Below are positions 1,603-32,418 of a stretch of DNA of 32,997 nt, one piece after another (the first letter of the stretch is position 1; every line of letters begins with the position of its first letter). The DNA lies in contig JALVTX010000173.1 of the NCBI GenBank assembly GCA_027035825.1, positions 1 to 32,997 of the forward strand, read 5' to 3'. Below the pieces are notes generated by a model. It worked only from the letters and a program-made list of their open reading frames with translations. It did not search any database and was not told the DNA's origin. This DNA comes from Mariprofundaceae bacterium (lineage in GTDB: Bacteria > Pseudomonadota > Zetaproteobacteria > Mariprofundales > Mariprofundaceae). Made by a program: the position numbers and the translations under genes.

Positions 1603-3330
1603 TCAGACCGCGCGCAGGCGGTCCTTGGTCACGCGCCGGTTCACCCAGGCCTCGATCTCGGCCTCGGTCATGCCGTTCGCGTATTCGGTTCTGATTTTTT
1701 GGTTCTCTTCGGTCGCCAGCGGCCGGCCCAGGCGCTGGGCGATGCGGATCAGCGCCTTCGTGATGGGGATCGGCGCGGCCTCGGCCGGCGCCGCCGCGAT
1801 CGGCAGCTCGGTGCCCGGCCGGTTCATGTAGGCCGGCGGGGTGTATTCCTTCGCAGCCTTGAAAGCATCGACGCCGGCAAAGGGCTTGTCGCGGCGCTTG
1901 CGGGCATTTTCAGCCTCGCGGTCGCTATCGGCGCCGTAGGCCATGCGGGTGAATTCGCGGGCGTGACGCATCGCATCCGTATGGGGCGCTTGTGCCCACT
2001 CCTCGCCGATGGGGATGGCGTCGGCGGCAAACCCGCCCTGGATTCCGGGCAGGCGCTCCACGGCGCGCACCTCGATCCACGGCTCGTCCGGAGATACCCG
2101 AACCTGTACGACATCATCGGCAAACACGTTGCGCCGCACCTCGACTTTCATGCGCGTATGCACGCCAGGAACTACGTCATACAAGCGGTATTGCTTGCCC
2201 TCGAATCGGATGGAGTAGTCGCCGCGAACGGGCGTCTTGCGAGACTTCCGATTGGCTAGGTCGAGCAACTGCCGGTGCGTCGCCCGGATTTCCCTCAGAT
2301 CTTCCTTGCGGATGGTCTGCCACAGCCCAAACCGGGTCATGCCGGTGCGTTCCAGGATGCGTTCGGAGTTGAGCTTGATGCATTCAAGCTCGGCCAGCTC
2401 GTTCAGCTCCTCGATGGTGCGTGCTGGACTGACGCGCAACTTGGACTCAATCCGCGTTTCGATGATCCTCTGGGTGGCCTCGACCTGGCCATTGGCATTC
2501 GCCTTGCCGGCCCTGTGATCCTCGATCCTCACGCCCAAGGCGTCGCAGAATTCCAGGAACCCCTGATCCCGGTGGGCGCCGGCCTTGTCCACCATCAGGA
2601 TTTTCGGAACGCCGTGGAACGGGTTGCCGTTGTCCTTCCGTCGCCAGGCGTGGGCCAGGAAATCGATGGCCATGCGCGCGCTTTCGCCCGGCTCGTAGTA
2701 ATACCTCAGGTAAATCGTGCCAGAGAAATGATCAGTGAGCACGGCACGGATCAGCTTTGGCTTGCCCCGTTCCACCGCGTCGGCCAGTTGATCCGGCTTG
2801 TTCTTGTAAGCGCCGCGAACCATGTCGCGCTCTCCAAGACCCTTTCGATCCAGGTACCATTGAATGCCAACGGAATAGTCGAGCTGATGTGTATGATTTG
2901 GGTGCGACGATTTGAGATTGACATGCGGCTCCTGGGCCAGCAGGGCGCGCTTGTCGGCCTGCATCCTGCGCAGGTGCCGGTTCAGTGTCGAAGGCTTGAG
3001 CACACCCCTCGGGATGAGGCCATTGGCCTCGGCAATTTCGATGGCGACATCGGCTGGCATCACGATGCGCCCGGTCATCCGATGGCTGGTGAACATCAAC
3101 GCAGCCACACGCTTGATGTCATCCTCTGTGATACCATCCAGGCGAATGCGCCCGGCATCTTCGCGGCGCTTGCGGCCTGTCTTGTAAAGCCCCTCCTTTT
3201 TCAGCCAGCGATACAGCGTCGGAACGCTGATGCCAAGCCGCTCGGCAAAATGCCGGGCGATCTCGCCACGCTCCCGGTAGGGCGTGAATTCCAGGGCTCG
3301 CGCGGCCTCGGCCAGTATCTCCTCGCGCAT
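1603..3330 (-). CDS. Mu-type DDE transposase (MuA/TnpA-like)
   Basis: N-terminal HTH (ISVPTLYRWLKKEG), rve-like core with LDYSVG, ILMVDKAGAH and NGQVEATQR as candidate D, D, E positions, Mu-type C-terminal beta domain. Confidence 0.9.
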   Translation of the reverse strand: MREEILAEAARALEFTPYRERGEIARHFAERLGISVPTLYRWLKKEGLYKTGRKRREDAGRIRLDGITEDDIKRVAALMFTSHRMTGRIVMPADVAIEIAEANGLIPRGVLKPSTLNRHLRRMQADKRALLAQEPHVNLKSSHPNHTHQLDYSVGIQWYLDRKGLGERDMVRGAYKNKPDQLADAVERGKPKLIRAVLTDHFSGTIYLRYYYEPGESARMAIDFLAHAWRRKDNGNPFHGVPKILMVDKAGAHRDQGFLEFCDALGVRIEDHRAGKANANGQVEATQRIIETRIESKLRVSPARTIEELNELAELECIKLNSERILERTGMTRFGLWQTIRKEDLREIRATHRQLLDLANRKSRKTPVRGDYSIRFEGKQYRLYDVVPGVHTRMKVEVRRNVFADDVVQVRVSPDEPWIEVRAVERLPGIQGGFAADAIPIGEEWAQAPHTDAMRHAREFTRMAYGADSDREAENARKRRDKPFAGVDAFKAAKEYTPPAYMNRPGTELPIAAAPAEAAPIPITKALIRIAQRLGRPLATEENQKIRTEYANGMTEAEIEAWVNRRVTKDRLRAV

Positions 3331-4250
3331 TACTGGATGTCCGTCGGCGCGCCCGGCAATGCCGCCAGATCGATTTCCGCGTCAGAAGCCATCGAGGCCA
3401 TCGTCTGCGCGAACTGGTGCTCTTGGCCCGTGGCATACACGGCCGAAAGCATCATGGCCACTTCGTCGCGCAAGGTCTCCACGGCGGCGCGCAGCGCGAA
3501 CCATTCCGCGCGCTCCACGCCGTCCCGGCGCTCCATGTCCATGATGCGGGCCTTGAGCTGCATCATGCCGGCCACGGCATCCAGCTTCTCGCGCTCGATC
3601 TCGGCCAGAACGCCTGGCGTCGCCACCTCCGGAACACCGCCCTTCAGCCGCTCCAGCTCGGTGGCCAGGTCGTCGATGTGCTGGTTCTTCTCGGCCAGCA
3701 GCTTTTCCTTCACCTCCACGTCGGCTTCCATCTTCCGGAGCCGCTCGCGCAGGTCGCGGGCGGTCATCCGCTCGGCCTCGTCCAGCGTCAGCCCCAGCAC
3801 GTCCTCGCCGGCCTCCAGCTTGTCCAGCGATTCGTCGTCCAGCATTTCGGCGATGGCGTAGAGCTTGCTCCGGCCCAGCTTCAGCAGCCGATCGGAGCGA
3901 TCCGAAAACTTGCGCGCGGCAAGCATCAGGCGCTGTGCGGTTCGCGCCGGGATGCCACGCTCGCTCAGGCCCTCCTCGAACTCGCCATGCGGCAGGCTTT
4001 CCTTGAGCTTGATGAACGCGCGGCCCACTTCGATCATCGAGACGCATGCCTGCGTCATCGCGTGCTCGGCGAGCATCCACAGCGCCTTCGGATCGTCCGG
4101 CAGGTCTCCGGTCAGCCGGTCGAGCAACGCTCCACGAGCAGCGTCCTGTATCCGCTCTGCATCAGCCCTGGCAACGATGTCCTCGGCCTGCCCGGCGATG
4201 CGCTCGGCGTCGGCTTGTTCAATCGGGTCGATGTCCTTGATGTTGCTCAT
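3330..4250 (-). CDS. DUF3102-like phage protein
   Basis: 306 aa; 'MIEVGRAFIKLKESLPHGEFEEGLSERGIPARTAQRLMLAARKF' is typical of DUF3102; overlaps the transposase start. Confidence 0.7.
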   Translation of the reverse strand: MSNIKDIDPIEQADAERIAGQAEDIVARADAERIQDAARGALLDRLTGDLPDDPKALWMLAEHAMTQACVSMIEVGRAFIKLKESLPHGEFEEGLSERGIPARTAQRLMLAARKFSDRSDRLLKLGRSKLYAIAEMLDDESLDKLEAGEDVLGLTLDEAERMTARDLRERLRKMEADVEVKEKLLAEKNQHIDDLATELERLKGGVPEVATPGVLAEIEREKLDAVAGMMQLKARIMDMERRDGVERAEWFALRAAVETLRDEVAMMLSAVYATGQEHQFAQTMASMASDAEIDLAALPGAPTDIQ

Positions 4251-4618
4251 CAGTAGATGCTCCTCGTGTAGTTGGTTGCCTGGTCGTCAAACTTGCTGCG
4301 CGCGCGTTGGATGCCGTGCTGCACGGCGACGGCGATGTTGGTGATGCGTCGGGGCGCCAGCCGGTAGAGCCCGTCCGGCGTCTTCTCCACCCAGCCGGCG
4401 GCGATGCCGTTGCGGAGAAACCGCGTGGCCTCTGGCGCGGAAATCCCCAGCGCCCGGGCAATCTCGCTATTGCGCAGCGGCTCGAATTCGTGCCCGGCCA
4501 GCAGCTCGATGAGCTGGCAGAAGCGCAGAATCTGCCGGGATGGTCTGGCAGTATTGCCGCCATCCACGTTCACGGAGGCATCCACCATGTCTGATACTTC
4601 TTGCCGGCTTGTGCTCAT
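4250..4618 (-). CDS. IclR/MarR-type winged HTH phage regulator
   Basis: HTH segment NSEIARALGISAPEATRFLRNGIAAGWVEKTPDGLYRLAP; ATG at 4618 preceded by GGAGGAGG and overlapping the upstream stop. Confidence 0.65.
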   Translation of the reverse strand: MSTSRQEVSDMVDASVNVDGGNTARPSRQILRFCQLIELLAGHEFEPLRNSEIARALGISAPEATRFLRNGIAAGWVEKTPDGLYRLAPRRITNIAVAVQHGIQRARSKFDDQATNYTRSIY

Positions 4619-4872
4619 TTCCCTCCTCCTTTCGATCGACAGTCCGCCCGATCTCGTGCAGAAATTGCAGACGACTCTTTCCACCCTTGAAAAATGCGGC
4701 GTCGCAACCTCCGAAGAATTCGAAGAGGCCAGAGACCTGCTCGCCGGTGTTGCTCGCGCTCAAATGGTGATTCGTTCGAGCTGAACAGCGGCTTCAAAGC
4801 GTCCGCGATCCGCTCCATCTGTTCCCGGCTCAGGCTGCTTGAATCGACGGATCGGATTTTGAGTTCAATCAC
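4615..4872 (-). CDS. Hypothetical early protein (85 aa)
   Basis: GTG start overlaps the upstream stop (GTGA, 4869-4872) and its stop overlaps the downstream ATG (ATGA, 4615-4618), consistent with a translationally coupled operon. Confidence 0.5.
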   Translation of the reverse strand: MIELKIRSVDSSSLSREQMERIADALKPLFSSNESPFEREQHRRAGLWPLRILRRLRRRIFQGWKESSAISARDRADCRSKGGGK

Positions 4873-5327
4873 AACCCCAGCTCCTCCTGTTTCGTTCCGT
4901 GGTCCACGGCGCGCCGTCCGCGCGCCAGCATGCCGATGGCCTCGTCAATGGCCTTGCGCGCGGCGCCCGCGTCCAGTTCGCCGTCGAAGAATTTCGTCAG
5001 CGCCGCCACCGCCTCGGCCTGCGCCTTCTGAAGTCGCGCCAGCTCGTCCGGCTTCATCCGCCCCACGCGCTTCGGGATCTTGTAGAGCGCGAAGCCGCAG
5101 CGGCTTGCGATGTGGTGTAGTGGGCCAAAATCGTTCTGCGCCAACATGGCAGGAATAAGACGGGTAACCGGAAAATTGGCGTCATCACAAGGATTGGCCG
5201 CCCTATAGAGGCTGGATTGCGACCAGCCCAAGCGGTCAGCCAATTCAGTGATCTTGAGATCACCGCAAAGCACCAGGCGGTGGATCGCTTCCTGGAGCGT
5301 GGCCGGGGTGGACTTTCTCACCGCCAT
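4869..5327 (-). CDS. Phage CII-like regulatory protein
   Basis: N-terminal HTH (KITELADRLGWSQSSLYRAANP) and overall architecture of the phage regulatory CII family. Confidence 0.65.
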   Translation of the reverse strand: MAVRKSTPATLQEAIHRLVLCGDLKITELADRLGWSQSSLYRAANPCDDANFPVTRLIPAMLAQNDFGPLHHIASRCGFALYKIPKRVGRMKPDELARLQKAQAEAVAALTKFFDGELDAGAARKAIDEAIGMLARGRRAVDHGTKQEELGL

Positions 5328-5410
5328 TCCACCCCTCCCGCGAGGGCCGCGTGGAAACGCGCCTTGTTATTGTAATTGCAACGCGGTTGCGCCATGCCTA
5401 AGCTGTCGGC

Positions 5411-23504: not shown

Positions 23505-25889
23505 GTGGGTGACATGAACCTCAAGCTGGTGCTGGAGTTGGACGATCGCGGCGCCATCAAGGGTATTCGCGACGCCGACGGCAACCTCGTGCGCCTGGGC
23601 GGCGACGGGCGCAAGGCCGGCGACGAAATCGCCGGCGGCATGAGCAGGGCGCGCGCGGGCGTGCGCTCCATCTCCGAACAACTTGGGCGCATGCGCCGGG
23701 AAATCATGGGGCTGATCGGTATCCGGTTCGGCGCGGAAATGGTGCGGGATCTCGCGAGTGTCACCGACCGTTTCAAGGAAGTCACGGCCCGGCTCGCCGT
23801 GGCCAGTCGCTCGGCCGAGGATGCCGCACGCGCTTACAAGGCGCTGTCCGCCATCGCCCGGGAAACGCGCGCCGACTGGGGCGCGACGCTCGATCTCTAC
23901 TCGCGCCTGGCGCGATCCACGAAGGAACTGGGCGTTTCACAGTCCGACCTGTTGACGGTCACGAAGGCCATTAACCAGGCTATCGTGGTTTCCGGCGCCA
24001 GCGCCCAGGAGGCCGAGGCTGCACTGATCCAGTTCGGCCAGGGCATGGCCAGCGGCGCACTACGCGGCGACGAGCTCCGCAGCGTGCTGGAGCAGATGCC
24101 GAGGCTGGCCCAGATGATTGCCAGGGGCATGGGCGTATCGCTCGGCCAGTTGCGCCAGCTTGGCGCGGAGGGCCTGCTCACCACGCGGGACGTGATTGCC
24201 GCCATCAAGGCCCAGGCCGGGAGCGTGCAGCAAGAGTTCAACCGCATGCCGCCGACCATCAGCCAGGCTGTGGCACAGATCCGGAACAGCTTCACGATCT
24301 GGCTCGGCGAACAGGACAAGGCGCTCGGCTCCAGCACGATGCTCTCGGGCGCGCTGATGGGAATCGCGGACAACATGGATATCGCGGCGCGCAGCGCCAT
24401 CGGGCTGTCGGGGGCGATCCTGACATTGAGGGCCAATGCCATGCTGGCCGCGCGAGGGTTCGGTCGTCTCGGCAAGGCGGTCAGTCTGGTCGGGGCAGCC
24501 TTTGCCGGCTGGGAGATCGGCAAGGCGCTCGCCGACAAGTTTGCCATCGTGCGCGACTTCGGCATCACGCTCGGTGCGCTGCTAAATAAGCTGTTTATCA
24601 ACGTGCGATTCTTGGGTCGCAAGATTGCCGCCGAGTTTCGACTGGCTATAACATCTCCGCTGGATGCGCTACGCGAGCGTGTGGCTTCGGTGACCAAAGC
24701 CATCGCGGATGGGCTACGCGCCGTAGGGATGGAAGCCGCCGCAGGGCGTCTGGATGTGCTGGCGAAAGCGTTGCACTCGAACACGCAGAGCGCCCGCCGC
24801 TACCGCGAGGAGATCGCCCGCTTGAACCGCGAGCGCGCCCAAGAGCTTGCGCTCATTGATCGCGGCGCCGTGGCCATGATGCGCGAACCGATGCGGCGCC
24901 GTCAGCCCCCAGCAACGGCATCCGGCGGCGGGTCAAATCCGCCGGCGGCCGGTGTCGATATCCTCAATCAGTTGCGGAAGAAACAACGGCAGCAGGATCG
25001 CGAGAACCTGCGCAAGCACTTGGCGCAGAAGCTTTCCATGCTCGAAACCTCGCTGATGACCGAGGCCGAGCGCGAGAACCAGGCTTATCAGAACAGGCTC
25101 TCCATTCTGGCCCAAGCGCGCGAATTGAAGCTGATCGATGAGCAGCGGCAACAGGAACTGGAAGCGCAGCTGAAGGAACAGCATGAGCAGCGACTGACCG
25201 AGATCCAGCGTCAGGCGCTGGAGCAGCGCCAGCAAATGTTGACCGACTTCCAGAACACGGCGCTTGGATTGCAACAGGGTTTCGCGCAGGCATTTCAGGA
25301 TGCCAGTCGCGTGAACCTGGACCAGATGCTGGCGCGGATGTCGGCTTTTCACGACGCTAGCAAGAAGCTCTGGCAGACGGGGTTTCAAGGCAAGGTGGCC
25401 GTGATGAAGGGCGGCTTGGCGATGATGTCCGGTTTGATGGAAAGTCATAATCGGAAGCAATTCGAGCTGGGCAAGGCTGCGGCCATTGCCAACGCCGTGA
25501 TCAGCACGGCCCAGGGAATGGCCGAAGCTCTAAAATGGGGATTTCCGATGGGCCCGATCTTTGCCGGCATCATCGGCGGCCTTGGCGCCTTGCAGATAGC
25601 GAAAATCGCGTCGACCAAGTTTGGCCAGAAAGGCGCCGGGAGTGCGGGCATTCCCTCTGCCGGCATCGGCGGCGGTACGCCCACCGTGCGGGTAAATACG
25701 CGCACGGGGCTGCCAGCATCCCCTTCCGGCTTGCGGCAACAGCAAGTCCCGACCGTGAACCTCACCGTCCAGGCGTTGCACCCGGAGGCATTGAGTCCGG
25801 AGGTGGCCCAGCGCATCGCGGATAGCCTCGCCCCGGCCCTGCATGACACGCTTGCGCGCGGCGGCCAGAACGTGGCGGTGATGGCATGA
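23505..25889 (+). CDS. Tail tape measure protein
   Basis: 794 aa with tape-measure N-terminal domain features (FKEVTARLAVASRSAEDAARAYKALSAIARETRADWGATLDLYSRLARST...SALIQFGQGMASGALRGDELRSVLEQMP-like), central hydrophobic and coiled-coil segments. Confidence 0.88.
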   Translation: MGDMNLKLVLELDDRGAIKGIRDADGNLVRLGGDGRKAGDEIAGGMSRARAGVRSISEQLGRMRREIMGLIGIRFGAEMVRDLASVTDRFKEVTARLAVASRSAEDAARAYKALSAIARETRADWGATLDLYSRLARSTKELGVSQSDLLTVTKAINQAIVVSGASAQEAEAALIQFGQGMASGALRGDELRSVLEQMPRLAQMIARGMGVSLGQLRQLGAEGLLTTRDVIAAIKAQAGSVQQEFNRMPPTISQAVAQIRNSFTIWLGEQDKALGSSTMLSGALMGIADNMDIAARSAIGLSGAILTLRANAMLAARGFGRLGKAVSLVGAAFAGWEIGKALADKFAIVRDFGITLGALLNKLFINVRFLGRKIAAEFRLAITSPLDALRERVASVTKAIADGLRAVGMEAAAGRLDVLAKALHSNTQSARRYREEIARLNRERAQELALIDRGAVAMMREPMRRRQPPATASGGGSNPPAAGVDILNQLRKKQRQQDRENLRKHLAQKLSMLETSLMTEAERENQAYQNRLSILAQARELKLIDEQRQQELEAQLKEQHEQRLTEIQRQALEQRQQMLTDFQNTALGLQQGFAQAFQDASRVNLDQMLARMSAFHDASKKLWQTGFQGKVAVMKGGLAMMSGLMESHNRKQFELGKAAAIANAVISTAQGMAEALKWGFPMGPIFAGIIGGLGALQIAKIASTKFGQKGAGSAGIPSAGIGGGTPTVRVNTRTGLPASPSGLRQQQVPTVNLTVQALHPEALSPEVAQRIADSLAPALHDTLARGGQNVAVMA

Positions 25890-26695
25890 CGCAGGATGCG
25901 CCGATGATCCTCTGGCACAACCTGCTGGCCGGAGCCGCCTACACCGTGGACATCGGCACGGAGGAGGCCGGCAGGCCCATGTCCAACGTCGCGAACCTCG
26001 ACACGCTGCGCCCGGCGCAGATTACAGCGGATCCAAGCGGCGTGGCGCAGGTCACATGGACGTTGCCGGGCTCCATCGGCTACGGCGTCGAGCCATTCGG
26101 CTTCGGCCCGTGGGGCGGGCAATGGCCCATCGAGGCTATCGTGCTGGGCGCCAACCGGCATCAGTCAGCCGGATTTCGCACACCGGGACTCACGTGGGAG
26201 ATCGCGGGGCTGACGATCCAGGACATCTGGCCGGACAACACGGCGGTGATCGTCAAGCCATCCGCCCCGGTCATGACCAGCACCGTCACGCTCAAGATCA
26301 CGGGCGCTGCGGCGGGGCAGCTGATCACCATCCCGGAGCTGTACGTCGGCCCGGCCATCACAATGCCGCATCTGGATTACGGTTATGACCCTTACCACGA
26401 GGTCGCCAACGCGCCGAGCTTCAAGACCGAATCCGGGCGTGAGTACCTGGCCGTGCGCTATCGGCGGCTGGAGGTCTCCCCGCGCTGGTCGGTCGCACCG
26501 TCGCGGCTCTGGGCCATGCTCGATTACTTCCGGGAGCAGGTCCTCGAGGTCCGAAAGGTGTTCTGGTGGGCGTGGTCCCCGGACTCGCACCCGACCGAGG
26601 TCTACCTCACCAGACACAATCAGCCCGCCGCCGGCATGCCGTGGCGCAGTTCCGTGCACCGCAGCTTCGATCTGCGGCTGGTGGAGGCGGTATGA
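25886..26695 (+). CDS. Distal tail protein, uncharacterised
   Basis: 269 aa directly after tape measure; ATGA-type overlaps with neighbours. Confidence 0.6.
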   Translation: MTQDAPMILWHNLLAGAAYTVDIGTEEAGRPMSNVANLDTLRPAQITADPSGVAQVTWTLPGSIGYGVEPFGFGPWGGQWPIEAIVLGANRHQSAGFRTPGLTWEIAGLTIQDIWPDNTAVIVKPSAPVMTSTVTLKITGAAAGQLITIPELYVGPAITMPHLDYGYDPYHEVANAPSFKTESGREYLAVRYRRLEVSPRWSVAPSRLWAMLDYFREQVLEVRKVFWWAWSPDSHPTEVYLTRHNQPAAGMPWRSSVHRSFDLRLVEAV

Positions 26696-26997
26696 AGCAA
26701 CTGCCGCGTGCGCTCGCCGATGCGGTGCAGGCCGGGCAGGCGTCCGAGCCGCTGGCCCTCCTCGCTGTCTGGGCCGAGCGCGGGCCGGAATCCCGGCTTG
26801 TCGCGCCGAACCAACTGGCCGGCTCCAATGATCCGGCGGCTGCGAACGATGCCAACGTGACCGTGACCAACGGTGCGCTAGTGCTGGCTGCCGGCAATAC
26901 GGTGCCGATGGATCCGGCAAATGCGCTTGGCTCGGCCTATCTCGAAACAAAGTGGCAAGGCCATGTGACCGAGGTTGGCCAAGAGGTGTGGGCATGA
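26692..26997 (+). CDS. Small tail-module protein
   Basis: 101 aa MKQLPRALADAVQAGQASEPLALLAVWAERG...; overlaps on both sides. Confidence 0.5.
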   Translation: MKQLPRALADAVQAGQASEPLALLAVWAERGPESRLVAPNQLAGSNDPAAANDANVTVTNGALVLAAGNTVPMDPANALGSAYLETKWQGHVTEVGQEVWA

Positions 26998-29036
26998 GCA
27001 TCTGGGGCAAGATCACCGGCCAGAAAAAATACCAGCACATCCGATATGACCGGTATGTGGACGCCAACACCCCTGCCATCATGGCACCATTCACGCCTGT
27101 CTCGACCATTCGAGTGGAAGAAGTCAATCTGGGGCTGGAGAATGCCGGCAACCTTGCCGCAACCTGTTATGTCTGGTTCAGGGATGCGCTCACCAAGCGC
27201 CAGATCGGCAATCAGATCCGGTTGAGTCTGGCCGCGGGCAGCGGCGTATCCGTGCATACGCTGTCCGGATTCTCGGCTGCATTGTTCCGGGGACGCGACT
27301 ACGAGTTGGTGGTGGATTTCGCCCGCCCCGACATCAACAGCTATACTGCTCCGCAGTCGTCCACCAGCCACTATTCCGTGGCGATTCGGGCCTATGGCAT
27401 CAAGGGGGCGGCCGTGGGCCCGGCATGGAAGTTCCGGCTTGGCGATGGCGAGGTCGTCATGGCCGGCCGCGAGGGTTATCAGGCCACGGGCGCGGCCTGG
27501 CGGACGTTCGACGTGCGCGAGGCGCCCGCGGGCGACGGGTTGGTGACATTCGTGGACGTAGTGCCGGCCGGCACGAGTATGCAGGTGGAGCTTTGGTACA
27601 CCAACAACCCTACGCTGGCGGCCGCGCCGGGCACTACAGGGTGGACGTATCACGGCATCGTCCAGTCCGGCGACACGATCCCGCCTGCACGGTACTGGCG
27701 GGCCAAGATCAGTTATACCTCGACCGCCGGGAACGACGACACGCCGGAGCTGAGTGCCATCAGCATCATCTATTACCGGGACCCGGTGCTGATCGGCACG
27801 CACGTGCAGGCCGTGCCGCTGACCTCGGGCGGAACGACGGCGCAATCCGCGCCGGGCCTGTCGCGAATCGGCACGGCAAGCGCCGCTCTGTCGCCGCAAC
27901 TCAAGCAACAGATGGTGGGCCGGATGACCTGCGAATTGGCGCCGGAGCCGGAGGCCGATTACCTGGCCAGCGTGCCACTGCGCGGGCACAGGGCGCAGAT
28001 TCGCGTCGGCTACAACGGCGTGCCGGACACCATCGGGCTGTACGATGGCATCGTGCGGGATATGGCCTGGCACGGCAACCGGTGGGCGCTGACGATGGAC
28101 GACATCATCTCCATCACCGATGCCAAGGCCCCGAACCGCCGCTGGCCGACCTGGGACGCCGCGACGGCCTACAATCCCGGCGACATCGTGGCCTACAACG
28201 GCAAGGGCTGGCTGGCGCTGGTCGGCAGCACGGGCGTCACGCCCGGCAGCGATCCTAACACCTGGCAGGAATATGGCGCCGTCTGGAAAGAGCTGGACTA
28301 TACGCCGGCCAGCAACAATGGCACGAACTGGCACCTGGCCGACATCGCTTACGACATCCTGTCCAACGCGATCAACCTGCCCGGCGAGCGCATCGACCGG
28401 GCCAGCATCGATGCGGTCAAGGCGTTGCGCCCCGCTGTTGTCAGTACCGGCGCGCGCATCACGCATCCGGTCTCCGGCCGCAAGCTGCTGGAGGAGATCG
28501 CGTGGCTGTTGCAGGCGCAGTGGATTGAGCGCGACGGGCAGATTGCCCTGTTGCCCGATCCTGATCCAGCGACCGTGGCGCCGGTCGAGACGATCACGCC
28601 GGACGACATCGCCGAGGGCCTGCAATACCGGCGCGGCTGGGCGGACGAGAAGAACGAGTGCCTGATCCTGACCGGCCTGCCGGCGGGCAGCGATGCGGGG
28701 CAACCGGGCAACTACTCGGACGGCATCGTGGCCACGGACGCCGCCGCCGTGCACGACGCCGATGCGGTGCTGCCCCACGTGTTCCACGACCGTTGGAACG
28801 TGCCACAGAGCGAACTCACCCGCATCGCGACGGATTTCGTCTCCAGCTGGGCCGGTGGCCGGGCCGTGGTCCGCGCGACGGTCTCCATGCGGCTGATGGC
28901 CCTGGAGCCGGGCGACGTGATCCGCCTGCAATCCGGCCAGCTCCCAGGAGGGCGGAGTGAGATGCTGATGATGGTGATGCGCGTGGATCTGGACTGGCAG
29001 CGGCAGGCGCTGCGCATGGATTTTCTGGAGGTGTAA
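26994..29036 (+). CDS. Tail tip / receptor-side tail protein with CBM5/12-like segment
   Basis: 680 aa from MSIWGK; contains WPTWDAATAYNPGDIVAYNGKGWLALVGSTGVTPGSDPNTWQEYG. Confidence 0.65.
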   Translation: MSIWGKITGQKKYQHIRYDRYVDANTPAIMAPFTPVSTIRVEEVNLGLENAGNLAATCYVWFRDALTKRQIGNQIRLSLAAGSGVSVHTLSGFSAALFRGRDYELVVDFARPDINSYTAPQSSTSHYSVAIRAYGIKGAAVGPAWKFRLGDGEVVMAGREGYQATGAAWRTFDVREAPAGDGLVTFVDVVPAGTSMQVELWYTNNPTLAAAPGTTGWTYHGIVQSGDTIPPARYWRAKISYTSTAGNDDTPELSAISIIYYRDPVLIGTHVQAVPLTSGGTTAQSAPGLSRIGTASAALSPQLKQQMVGRMTCELAPEPEADYLASVPLRGHRAQIRVGYNGVPDTIGLYDGIVRDMAWHGNRWALTMDDIISITDAKAPNRRWPTWDAATAYNPGDIVAYNGKGWLALVGSTGVTPGSDPNTWQEYGAVWKELDYTPASNNGTNWHLADIAYDILSNAINLPGERIDRASIDAVKALRPAVVSTGARITHPVSGRKLLEEIAWLLQAQWIERDGQIALLPDPDPATVAPVETITPDDIAEGLQYRRGWADEKNECLILTGLPAGSDAGQPGNYSDGIVATDAAAVHDADAVLPHVFHDRWNVPQSELTRIATDFVSSWAGGRAVVRATVSMRLMALEPGDVIRLQSGQLPGGRSEMLMMVMRVDLDWQRQALRMDFLEV

Positions 29037-29039
29037 GAG

Positions 29040-31058
29040 ATGGCGACACGGACCCCGAACCTTGGACTCAACAAGCCCGGATCGGGCGAATATGGCTGGG
29101 ATGCGCTGCTCTCCCAGAACATCGACACGCTGGATGCCTATGTCGGTCAGTTGCTGGATGAACGCGCCGTCTCGGGCACGGCGACCGGCGGCAGCGCCAC
29201 AACGATCACGGATAACGGCGCGAACTGGGGTACGGATGCTTTCGCAGGCGCAATTGTCGTGGTACGCCGCGATGGCGTGCTGCTGCGCACCGAGAAGATT
29301 GCCAGCAATACGGCGACGACGATCACGCTCGCAGCTTCGGGCGCGGCGATTCAATCCGGCGACAGCTATGTGATCATGGCCCAAGCGAACGCGATTCCGA
29401 ATTCCGAGAAGGGCCAGCCCAACGGCGTCGCCACGCTGGACGCCGCGGGAAAGCTCGCGCAGATGCCGACGGCGGATGACATCAATCCGTCCATTATGGC
29501 GCATATCAACTCCCCGCACGCGCCGGCCAACGCGGAGCCGAACCGACCCATCGCCACGCAGGCGCAGGCGCTGGCGGGCACGGACAACACGACGGACATG
29601 ACCCCGCTTCGGGCCAAGCAGGCCATCGATGCCGCCATCGCCGCCATCGCGTTGCCTCCAAAGCGCGACGTGACGTGGTTGTCGAAGAGTCCCGGCAACT
29701 GCTTCTCCATCATCATGAACGGGCGCCTTTATAACGCCCATGCGACCGCCGCATCATGGTGGCATGCCACTGGCCGCACCTCCGGCACGGACTGGGCCAC
29801 GGAGTTCGGCGTCCGGCACGGTCTGATTGAAGTGCTGTTCCCCAATGAAACAGGAAACCTCGTGGAAGCTGGAAACACGGCGGACGATTCATGGGCGCTG
29901 TTCGACAACGGCAACCTGTATATGTGGGGATACAATCAGTTCGGCCAACTGGGCGTTGGCGACACTGCCGCGCACTGGACGCCCGTGCTGAGCGCCACGG
30001 GCGTGAGCAAGGTGTTCGCGCCGCAGCATTACGGAACCTACGGGGATTACATCCGGTTCTTCATCCAGAAGACCGACGGCACGATCTGGGGCGCGGGATA
30101 CAACGGCTTTGGCGCGCTGGGTGACGGCACGACGGTGGACAAGACCACGTGGACGCAAATCACCAGCCTCGGAACCAACACGGTCAAGCTGTTCAACCTT
30201 GGCGGGTATGTTGGCTGCACATTCGCCCTGAAATCAGATGGCTCCATCTGGGCCTGCGGCTACAACGGCTATGGCTGCCTCGGCGATGGCACCCTGACGA
30301 ACCGCTCCAGCTTCGTGGATGTGACCACCAACTGGGGAGGGCCGGCGGCGGACATTCTCCAGATGGGTGGTGGGTTCAGCTTCTATACGGGAGCGGCTTA
30401 CGACAATCGCTGCTTCACGGTGATGCTGCGCAAGGACTCGGCGGGCAATGCCGAGGTGCGGACATGCGGCAACAGCTCCTGGGGTCAGCGTGGAGATGGA
30501 ACGACGGTCAACACGGCCAGCGTGCCTTATCTCGTCCCGCTGGCCAACCAACCGGTGGAGATGGCCGTGTTTGGTGGAGCGCCGGGGACGATTTACGTCC
30601 GTGATTCGGCCAACCAACTGCTTGCATGGGGCTATAACGGTTATGGCCAGATTGGCGACGGAACGACGGCGAACAAGACATCCGCGACGGTCGTGGCTAC
30701 GGACTGCGCCAAACTCTTCGGTGATGGCAACGATGAATACAACTACGGGCACTATATCTCCGGCTTCTACCGGAACCTGAATGGCCAACTGATGGGCACA
30801 GGCTACAACGCCTACGGAGAGCTGGGCATTGGCAATACGACCCAGCAGACCACGTTCCAGCAGGTGATGCTGCCCTATGCAACGTCGGGGCAGATTGTCG
30901 ATCTCGGCTGGTTCGCCTCGACCGGTTCCACCAAGACCTATATCGCCAGGATGGCTGACGGACGCCTCTTTGCGTGGGGCTACAACGGCCAGCAGAACAT
31001 CGGCAACGCGGCGCAGAATGTCGTCGTGCCCGTCCAGATCGAGCTGCCGCAACTGTAA
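29040..31058 (+). CDS. Tail fibre with RCC1-like beta-propeller repeats
   Basis: N-terminus TRTPNLGLNKPGSGEYGWDALLSQNIDTLDAYV; seven WGYNxxGQLGxGT-type repeats in the C-terminal half. Confidence 0.75.
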   Translation: MATRTPNLGLNKPGSGEYGWDALLSQNIDTLDAYVGQLLDERAVSGTATGGSATTITDNGANWGTDAFAGAIVVVRRDGVLLRTEKIASNTATTITLAASGAAIQSGDSYVIMAQANAIPNSEKGQPNGVATLDAAGKLAQMPTADDINPSIMAHINSPHAPANAEPNRPIATQAQALAGTDNTTDMTPLRAKQAIDAAIAAIALPPKRDVTWLSKSPGNCFSIIMNGRLYNAHATAASWWHATGRTSGTDWATEFGVRHGLIEVLFPNETGNLVEAGNTADDSWALFDNGNLYMWGYNQFGQLGVGDTAAHWTPVLSATGVSKVFAPQHYGTYGDYIRFFIQKTDGTIWGAGYNGFGALGDGTTVDKTTWTQITSLGTNTVKLFNLGGYVGCTFALKSDGSIWACGYNGYGCLGDGTLTNRSSFVDVTTNWGGPAADILQMGGGFSFYTGAAYDNRCFTVMLRKDSAGNAEVRTCGNSSWGQRGDGTTVNTASVPYLVPLANQPVEMAVFGGAPGTIYVRDSANQLLAWGYNGYGQIGDGTTANKTSATVVATDCAKLFGDGNDEYNYGHYISGFYRNLNGQLMGTGYNAYGELGIGNTTQQTTFQQVMLPYATSGQIVDLGWFASTGSTKTYIARMADGRLFAWGYNGQQNIGNAAQNVVVPVQIELPQL

Positions 31059-31069
31059 GGAGGACAGCA

Positions 31070-31516
31070 ATGCCAATGAGCAATCCGACGCCGCCCGTCG
31101 TGGGCAAGGAACCGCCAATGCCGTCGGCCCGGCAGGAACTGCTGCGTATCGTAAGAGAGGAAGCCGCGCGCGCCATCGATGCGGCGGCCGAACGGGCGCG
31201 CGGGCCTTGGCTTGTCGCGCCGGGGCAGGCGCTGACCTATCGCGAAAAGGAACAGCAGGCGCGGGGCTATGCATCGGCTGGATATGCCGGAGCTGTCCCG
31301 CCGCTGGTGCGGCTGGAGGTGGACGCCTCTGGCGGAGCCATCACCGCGAAGCAAGCCGCCGACGCCATCATCGCCGCCGCTGATGCGGCCCGCGCAGCGC
31401 TTGCCGCCATCGAGCTGGAGCGCCGCAAGGGGATGCTGGCCATCAGGAAGGCGCGAACGGAGAAGACCATCCACGCCGCGAGGGATGCGGCGGTTCAGGC
31501 GCTGGGAGCGCTCTGA
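31070..31516 (+). CDS. Possible tail fibre assembly protein
   Basis: 148 aa directly downstream of fibre; YREKEQQARGYASAGYAGAVPPLVRLEVDASGGAITAKQAADAIIAAADA. Confidence 0.5.
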   Translation: MPMSNPTPPVVGKEPPMPSARQELLRIVREEAARAIDAAAERARGPWLVAPGQALTYREKEQQARGYASAGYAGAVPPLVRLEVDASGGAITAKQAADAIIAAADAARAALAAIELERRKGMLAIRKARTEKTIHAARDAAVQALGAL

Positions 31517-31827: not shown

Positions 31828-31887
31828 GTGAAATACTGTTACAAATAGGATAATCCGTCAGAATTTGAATTATATCACCTATTCGTC
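31828..31887. mobile_element. Right end of Mu-like prophage (junction within this interval)
   Basis: AT-rich segment after last phage gene followed by the truncated rlmB reading frame; candidate CA end at 31876-31877 (TATATCA). Confidence 0.5.
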
Positions 31888-32418
31888 TTGAGTTTTCGCG
31901 CGCGGCATCATTTCGCCGCCTGGCTGGACGGGCTGGACGTGGAGACCGGCGTGCTGGTGCTGCTGCTCGATGGCGTGACCGACCCGCACAACCTCGGCGC
32001 CTGCGTGCGCACCGCCGAGGCGGCGGGCTGCGCCGGGGTGATCATCCCCCGGCATCACGCGGCCGATGCCGACGCGCCGGCGGCGGCCAAGGCGGCCTGC
32101 GGGGCGATGGCGCGGTTGCCGGTGCTGACGGTTCCGAACCTGGTGCGGGCGATGGATGCGCTGCGCGAGCGCGGCGTGTGGCTGGCGGGCCTGGCCGGGG
32201 AGGCTGATGCGTTGATTTACGAAGCTGATCTGCGCGGCAACCTGGGGCTGGTGATGGGCGCGGAGGGCAAGGGGCTGAGGCGGCTGGTGCGCGAGCATTG
32301 CGACCAGCTGCTCCGCATCCCGATGCCGGGAAGCGTGGAATCGCTGAACGTGTCGGTGGCGACGGGGGTGGCGCTGTTCGAGGCCGTGCGCCAGCGGCGG
32401 GAGGGCTCCCGGGCCTGA
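31888..32418 (+). pseudogene. rlmB: 5'-truncated 23S rRNA (guanosine-2'-O-)-methyltransferase RlmB-type gene, interrupted by prophage
   Basis: LLLDGVTDPHNLGACVRTAEAAG...LVMGAEGKGLRRLVREHCDQLLRIPMPGSVESLNVSVATGVALFEAVRQRR; N-terminal substrate-binding domain missing. Confidence 0.85.

Follow-up and report, generated by a model that had tools for sequence, protein, structure and literature searches.

A tail fibre with a predicted eight-bladed RCC1-like propeller head, exchanged between phages, in a Mu-like prophage of a Mariprofundaceae bacterium

The window analysed here, a stretch of 32,997 nucleotides which comprises an entire contig of a Mariprofundaceae bacterium, encodes the structural genes of a Mu-like phage, including those for a Mu-type portal (PF06074), terminase (PF03237), major head protein (phrog_371) and virion morphogenesis protein (PF05069). 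In the tail cluster, the gene for the tape measure protein (PF20155) is followed by those for a tail hub (Phage-tail_3, PF13550; 26952..29036, + strand) and a tail fibre (29040..31058, + strand). The hub is 65% identical to that of the metagenomic sister phage L237. A search with the hub protein against phage records produced no match. Starting with ATG 3 bp past the hub gene, the fibre open reading frame codes for a protein of 672 amino acids with a C-terminal RCC1-like propeller head. A small gene of uncertain start codon lies 3' of the fibre gene (31064..31516, + strand) and codes for a candidate fibre assembly protein; the open reading frame from position 30974 matches phrog_8983, a family of unknown function, and its C-terminal part is 56% identical to the product of the downstream gene in L237. 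The fibre gene belongs to a Mu-like (transposable, siphovirus-type) prophage.

Several further features of the prophage were observed. The AAA protein and the large HTH protein encoded on the minus strand at 345-1583 and 1603-3330 resemble, by their layout, a MuB-type/transposase-type pair, so that the early genes appear to oppose the structural genes in direction. An rlmB-like (SpoU) host rRNA methylase gene is split over two contigs, with its C-terminal part at 31840-32418 of the window and its N-terminal part at G000:C136:4081-4299 (L236), beside genes identified by eye as Mor-like and Mu gp16-like phage genes. The prophage therefore seems to be inserted in rlmB, its two ends lying on two contigs. 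A chitin-binding-like CBM_5_12 module is encoded at 28149-28268 in the tail hub gene (E=1e-5 in the window, E=6e-10 in L237), and it is unusual to find a carbohydrate-binding module there.

Three parts can be distinguished in the fibre protein. Residues 1-141 (29040..29462, + strand) form a virion-side module which matches the fibres of L237, L004 and L162, residues 142-205 (29463..29654, + strand) form a stem or linker which matches the tail collar fibre family phrog_910 and carries the tail-fibre motif (QALAGTDNTTDMTPLRAKQAI; QALAGTDNTTDMTPLR) also present in the L238 and L239 fibres, and residues 206-672 (467 residues; 29655..31055, + strand) form the RCC1-like head, for which eight blades are predicted. 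The location in the tail cluster, the N-terminal module common to other fibres, the linker motif and homologues annotated as tail proteins, among them the phrog_20500 'tail protein' profile (E=6e-51), bear out the tail-fibre identity proposed in the first-pass annotation. An RCC1 profile search, set beforehand as a test that could refute the reading, gave a match to PF00415 (E=2.6e-25) at 89 bits against a cut-off of 21.7, along with matches to RCC1_2 (PF13540, E=1.3e-13) and to PF25390 (E=6e-37), the latter at 128 bits and thus under its curated cut-off of 150. The strict motif G[YNFH]Nxx G xx G occurs five times in the head, whereas 20,000 shuffles gave 0.019 on average and no more than two. 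The GC content of the head is 60.8% as against 64-67%, which may weakly suggest a foreign origin. A recent duplication of blades within the gene was ruled out, the inter-blade DNA repeats being at most about 70% identical.

The seven repeats quoted in the first-pass annotation are all found, in order, in the 672-residue frame, but an eighth, degenerate repeat upstream of them had been overlooked. Its core, CFSIIMNGRLYNAHA (about residues 222-236), lies 59 amino acids ahead of the first quoted repeat, is in register with the others and is conserved in all relatives. An alignment of ten relatives shows constant positions along the whole of the head, the stretch 209-270 included. All eight repeats align mutually. 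On the basis of repeat register, AlphaFold2 model and conservation, the degenerate blade 1 was assigned to residues 209-270 (29664..29849). It is followed, likewise on the + strand, by blade 2 (residues 271-320; 29850..29999), blade 3 (321-378; 30000..30173; A-B loop APQHYGTYGDYI), blade 4 (379-436; 30174..30347), blade 5 (437-502; 30348..30545; A-B loop FSFYTGAAYDNRC), blade 6 (503-555; 30546..30704), blade 7 (556-612; 30705..30875; A-B loop GDGNDEYNYGHYI) and the C-terminal blade 8 (613-672; 30876..31055). Eight groups of A-B-C-D strands in a row were assigned by DSSP in two AlphaFold2 models built on an alignment of 10 sequences, the first group corresponding to residues 209-270 in the model of the head alone. 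In the model of the full protein the head is confident and the N-terminal half of low confidence, while the head alone gave a mean pLDDT of 83.7 and a pTM of 0.87, with short D strands in blades 1 and 5 and low confidence for residues 237-259 of blade 1. The top Foldseek matches in the PDB are all of the RCC1 fold (UVR8, HERC, RPGR and RCC1), with UVR8 at an E of about 3e-26 and a TM of 0.72 by target length and human RCC1 at a TM of 0.61, and the RCC1-like propeller proposed in the first-pass annotation is thus upheld as a prediction. RCC1-fold proteins rank first in this comparison, and the likeness to BLIP-II that had also been considered did not emerge, with no BLIP-II chain among the PDB sequence matches at E<=1 or the top 50 Foldseek matches. 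UVR8, HERC1/2, RPGR and RCC1, the best solved matches, have the repeat consensus and blade architecture in common with the head, but differ from it in being only about 19% identical, intracellular and seven-bladed as against a predicted eight. RCC1 proper is a Ran exchange factor which binds chromatin, and bacteria have no Ran.

The fit to the solved seven-bladed UVR8 and RCC1 structures is loose, with an rmsd of about 5 A over about 410 columns, as would be expected if an extra blade alters the curvature. In a viral library, by contrast, the best structural matches are those to the predicted Littlefix tail fibre, to the predicted T7-like fibre of PollyC and to a protein from an uncultured phage, with query-length TM values of 0.62-0.65 (0.62 for Littlefix and PollyC) versus at most 0.43 for the solved seven-bladed RCC1 folds. 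Taken together, the modelled strand groups, the repeat register, the loose seven-bladed fits and the higher viral TM values suggest that the head is very probably eight-bladed, its ring presumably being closed, so that the other test set beforehand, that of a closed propeller, is passed indirectly. The count of seven in the first-pass annotation was not sustained. A seven-bladed propeller that leaves the N-terminal repeat outside the ring as an accessory would agree with the seven canonical motifs, with the degenerate and partly low-confidence nature of blade 1 and with the matched solved RCC1-like relatives, all of which we take to be seven-bladed. It is nonetheless unlikely, given that both models give blade 1 a separate set of A, B, C and D strands, that this blade is conserved and in register, and that the seven-bladed templates superimpose so loosely. 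Eight blades would, to our knowledge, be a new blade number for an RCC1-like ring.

Comparison with related phages shows that the head is a modular unit. The DNA of L237 matches the window at 68% identity from 25767 to 29453 and the match stops there, within the fibre gene. While residues 1-141 of the L237 fibre are 75% identical to those of the window fibre, its C-terminus is an ordinary gp53-like tail-fibre domain (PF21882, E=3.5e-13), and the match between the proteins returns only from about 31151 onwards, within the gene that follows. The exchanged cassette therefore extends from about 29463 to 31150 (+ strand) and comprises the fibre tip and the start of the downstream gene. The window head thus occupies the site of the gp53-like domain in L237, which supports the earlier suggestion that it replaces the usual tip. 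The reverse situation is found in L001, an unrelated phage with a different head gene set (phrog_334 major head protein), where a head about 70% identical to that of the window is joined to a different N-terminus and stem. L004, with the same tail layout as the window, has an N-terminus 50-60% identical (50% over residues 1-100) and a head only about 30% identical, so that L001 and L004 show crossed identity gradients along the fibre. The kinship of the whole L004 gene was considered as proof of vertical descent and rejected, as windowed identity showed that the N-terminus is conserved whereas the head has diverged. In L162, from a genome of the same family, about 41% identity to the window fibre was observed over residues 23-129 (or 24-143) and the remainder is unrelated.

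The head ends at most 19 amino acids from the C-terminus in 26 of the 27 distinct full-length homologues, the N-terminal parts of which range from 52 to 1775 amino acids. Exchange and a C-terminal position of this kind are typical of receptor-binding tips. RCC1-repeat proteins are numerous in bacterial genomes, and the gene could on that account be a bacterial surface-adhesion gene captured by the prophage and expressed by the lysogen outside the virion. The N-terminus is, however, common to the ordinary tail fibre of L237, and the whole-gene relative in L004 occupies the same tail position, making such a capture extremely improbable.

The same pattern of a conserved N-terminus and an exchangeable C-terminal tip is observed in cultured phages. 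The T7-like Pseudomonas phages PollyC and SeaP1-4 share 97-99% DNA identity in the terminase (TerL) gene and about 95% in fibre codons 1-300, but only 44-82% in the RCC1 heads. The fibre gene of PollyC and SeaP1 is flanked, as in T7, by the gene for the internal virion protein and the holin/terminase genes, and the N-terminus of its product resembles the T7 fibre family PF03906 (E about 1e-4, slightly below the cut-off). With dN/dS below 1 in every pair compared, positive selection on the heads was discarded in favour of exchange between diverged heads, which fits better. SeaP1-4 share one isolation host and yet carry two head types, so that there is no simple correspondence between head type and host. 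The SeaP1 fibre (L176, CDS 2696-5398) contains an exact 37-residue duplication in the head (GVRVCGANTYGILGNGNTTNTVVPFNTPLPSLPVD region) which is absent in SeaP4 and could be either an added blade piece or an assembly error. The heads of PollyC, Ppr_SeaP1-4 (T7 gp17-like fibres) and Littlefix (gp88) are homologous to the window head, with the same repeat layout and about 30-33% identity, and likewise form the C-termini of tail or fibre gene products, here in phages that have been isolated. These phages differ from the window phage in being podoviruses, and the fibre N-termini are unrelated or T7-like. Their proteins are annotated only as tail, RCC1-domain or outer membrane proteins, and no receptor work on the PollyC, SeaP or Littlefix heads was found.

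When 27 heads are compared, variability is highest in the A-B loops, at 2.55 bits, and 15.7% of the residues in these loops are Tyr, Trp or Phe, while the C-D loops or turns with the motif GYNGYGQLGDGT are conserved. The greater variability of the A-B loops is nominally significant (p 5e-5 versus B-C, 3e-5 versus C-D and 0.006 versus D-A loops), the columns being non-independent. As they vary more than the other loops, the A-B face is a candidate binding surface, and their variable and aromatic-rich nature is a weak hint at carbohydrate binding. A glycan ligand might be guessed at from the aromatic A-B loops and from the receptor-binding protein Gp45 of phage phi11, the propeller of which has a cavity modelled for GlcNAc (PMC4901313). 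Gp45 is a receptor-binding trimer in which each monomer carries one propeller and for which a glycan site has been proposed (PMC4901313), an arrangement that the fibre may resemble, but it has five blades and carries the propeller as a central 'platform' instead of a C-terminal tip. The phiKZ baseplate protein gp131C (PDB 4GBF) also has a C-terminal propeller and a suspected receptor role (PMC4901313), and differs in having seven blades. Both are absent from the PDB sequence matches of the fibre protein and of the head profile. Many phage tips are depolymerases, and the endosialidases, which are other propeller tips, are enzymes (PMC4901313), such that the head could be a depolymerase or glycan-modifying tip rather than a plain binder. 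This is quite unlikely, as the head matches no enzyme family in Pfam and conservation in the 27 heads is strongest at Gly, Asn, Trp and Pro residues with a structural role in the repeat, among which no catalytic set is obvious.

The most plausible overall reading, which is held to be likely, is that this Mu-like prophage tail fibre bears an exchangeable, eight-bladed RCC1-like head which serves as its host-recognition tip. Residues 1 to about 141 would attach the fibre to the virion, followed by a short stem which may trimerise, and the C-terminal 467 residues are predicted to fold as the propeller, whose ring the conserved C-D turns (GYNGYGQLGDGT) would keep together. The head would then bind a host receptor, probably through the variable A-B loops on one face, and recombination in the stem and the downstream gene may carry the head cassette from one phage to another, unrelated one.

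Phage genes with RCC1 repeats are usually named for chromosome condensation, and where they are discussed a role in DNA packing is suspected. The jumbo and Vequintavirinae phages phAPEC6, GAP32 and W70 encode virion proteins with RCC1 repeats (phrog_4219), of which a genome holds several copies that differ from one close relative to the next, those of W70 and GAP32 having been detected in virions by mass spectrometry. Unlike the window fibre, these are short, stand-alone proteins of about 40 kDa which the authors consider as possibly DNA condensing. For phAPEC6 (PMC7247149) and W70 (PMC11370258) this role was suspected by name and by analogy to eukaryotic RCC1, and both papers give it as speculation. 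A DNA-organising function of the fibre itself is very improbable, since the gene product is a fibre that begins with a tail module, acidic residues outnumber basic ones in the head (33 D+E versus 25 K+R), and heads of this kind terminate T7-fibre-like proteins and are swapped at otherwise near-identical loci, which is unexpected for DNA packing. A DNA-condensing role for the head is thus unlikely in this fibre clade, in which 'chromosome condensation' is arguably a misleading label, and the exchange pattern points to an exchangeable host-recognition tip as a concrete alternative. The RCC1-type class also includes two of the proteins that differ most when fEgEco12 is compared to Ecwhy_1, a close relative (PMC13070987), which is suggestive of the stand-alone jumbo-phage proteins also being exchanged tips.

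Propeller receptor-binding proteins are already known from phi11 (five blades), PRD1 (P2) and phiKZ (gp131C, seven blades) (PMC4901313), and RCC1 repeats are already annotated in phage proteins. In the open-access literature, no paper was found in which an RCC1 head is described as the receptor-binding domain of a phage. The predicted eight-bladed RCC1-like head, the evidence for its free exchange as a tip among unrelated phages and its natural replacement of a gp53-like tip are new. It may tentatively be proposed, at slightly less than an even chance, that a mobile family of such eight-bladed tips provides a general-purpose host-recognition head across T7-like, N4-like, Mu-like and contractile-tailed phages, and that the name 'regulator of chromosome condensation' is wrong for many phage genes, including those for the multi-copy virion proteins of jumbo phages, which would encode receptor-binding proteins instead. 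The cultured phages PollyC and SeaP1-4 (on Pseudomonas protegens Pf-5) allow the host-recognition role to be tested directly, and correct naming would improve the prediction of host range from phage genomes.

Aside from the RCC1-like heads, a fibre with the same stem motif (GTDNTTDMTPLR) encoded at L238:2810-5545 has Kelch repeats at its C-terminal end (PF01344, E=1e-39), suggesting that a second class of propeller is in use as a tail tip. Three RCC1-head fibre genes at L007:4250-8976 and two at L002:5767-9389 are clustered close together, beside long-tail-fibre genes, and look as if they were alternative tips.
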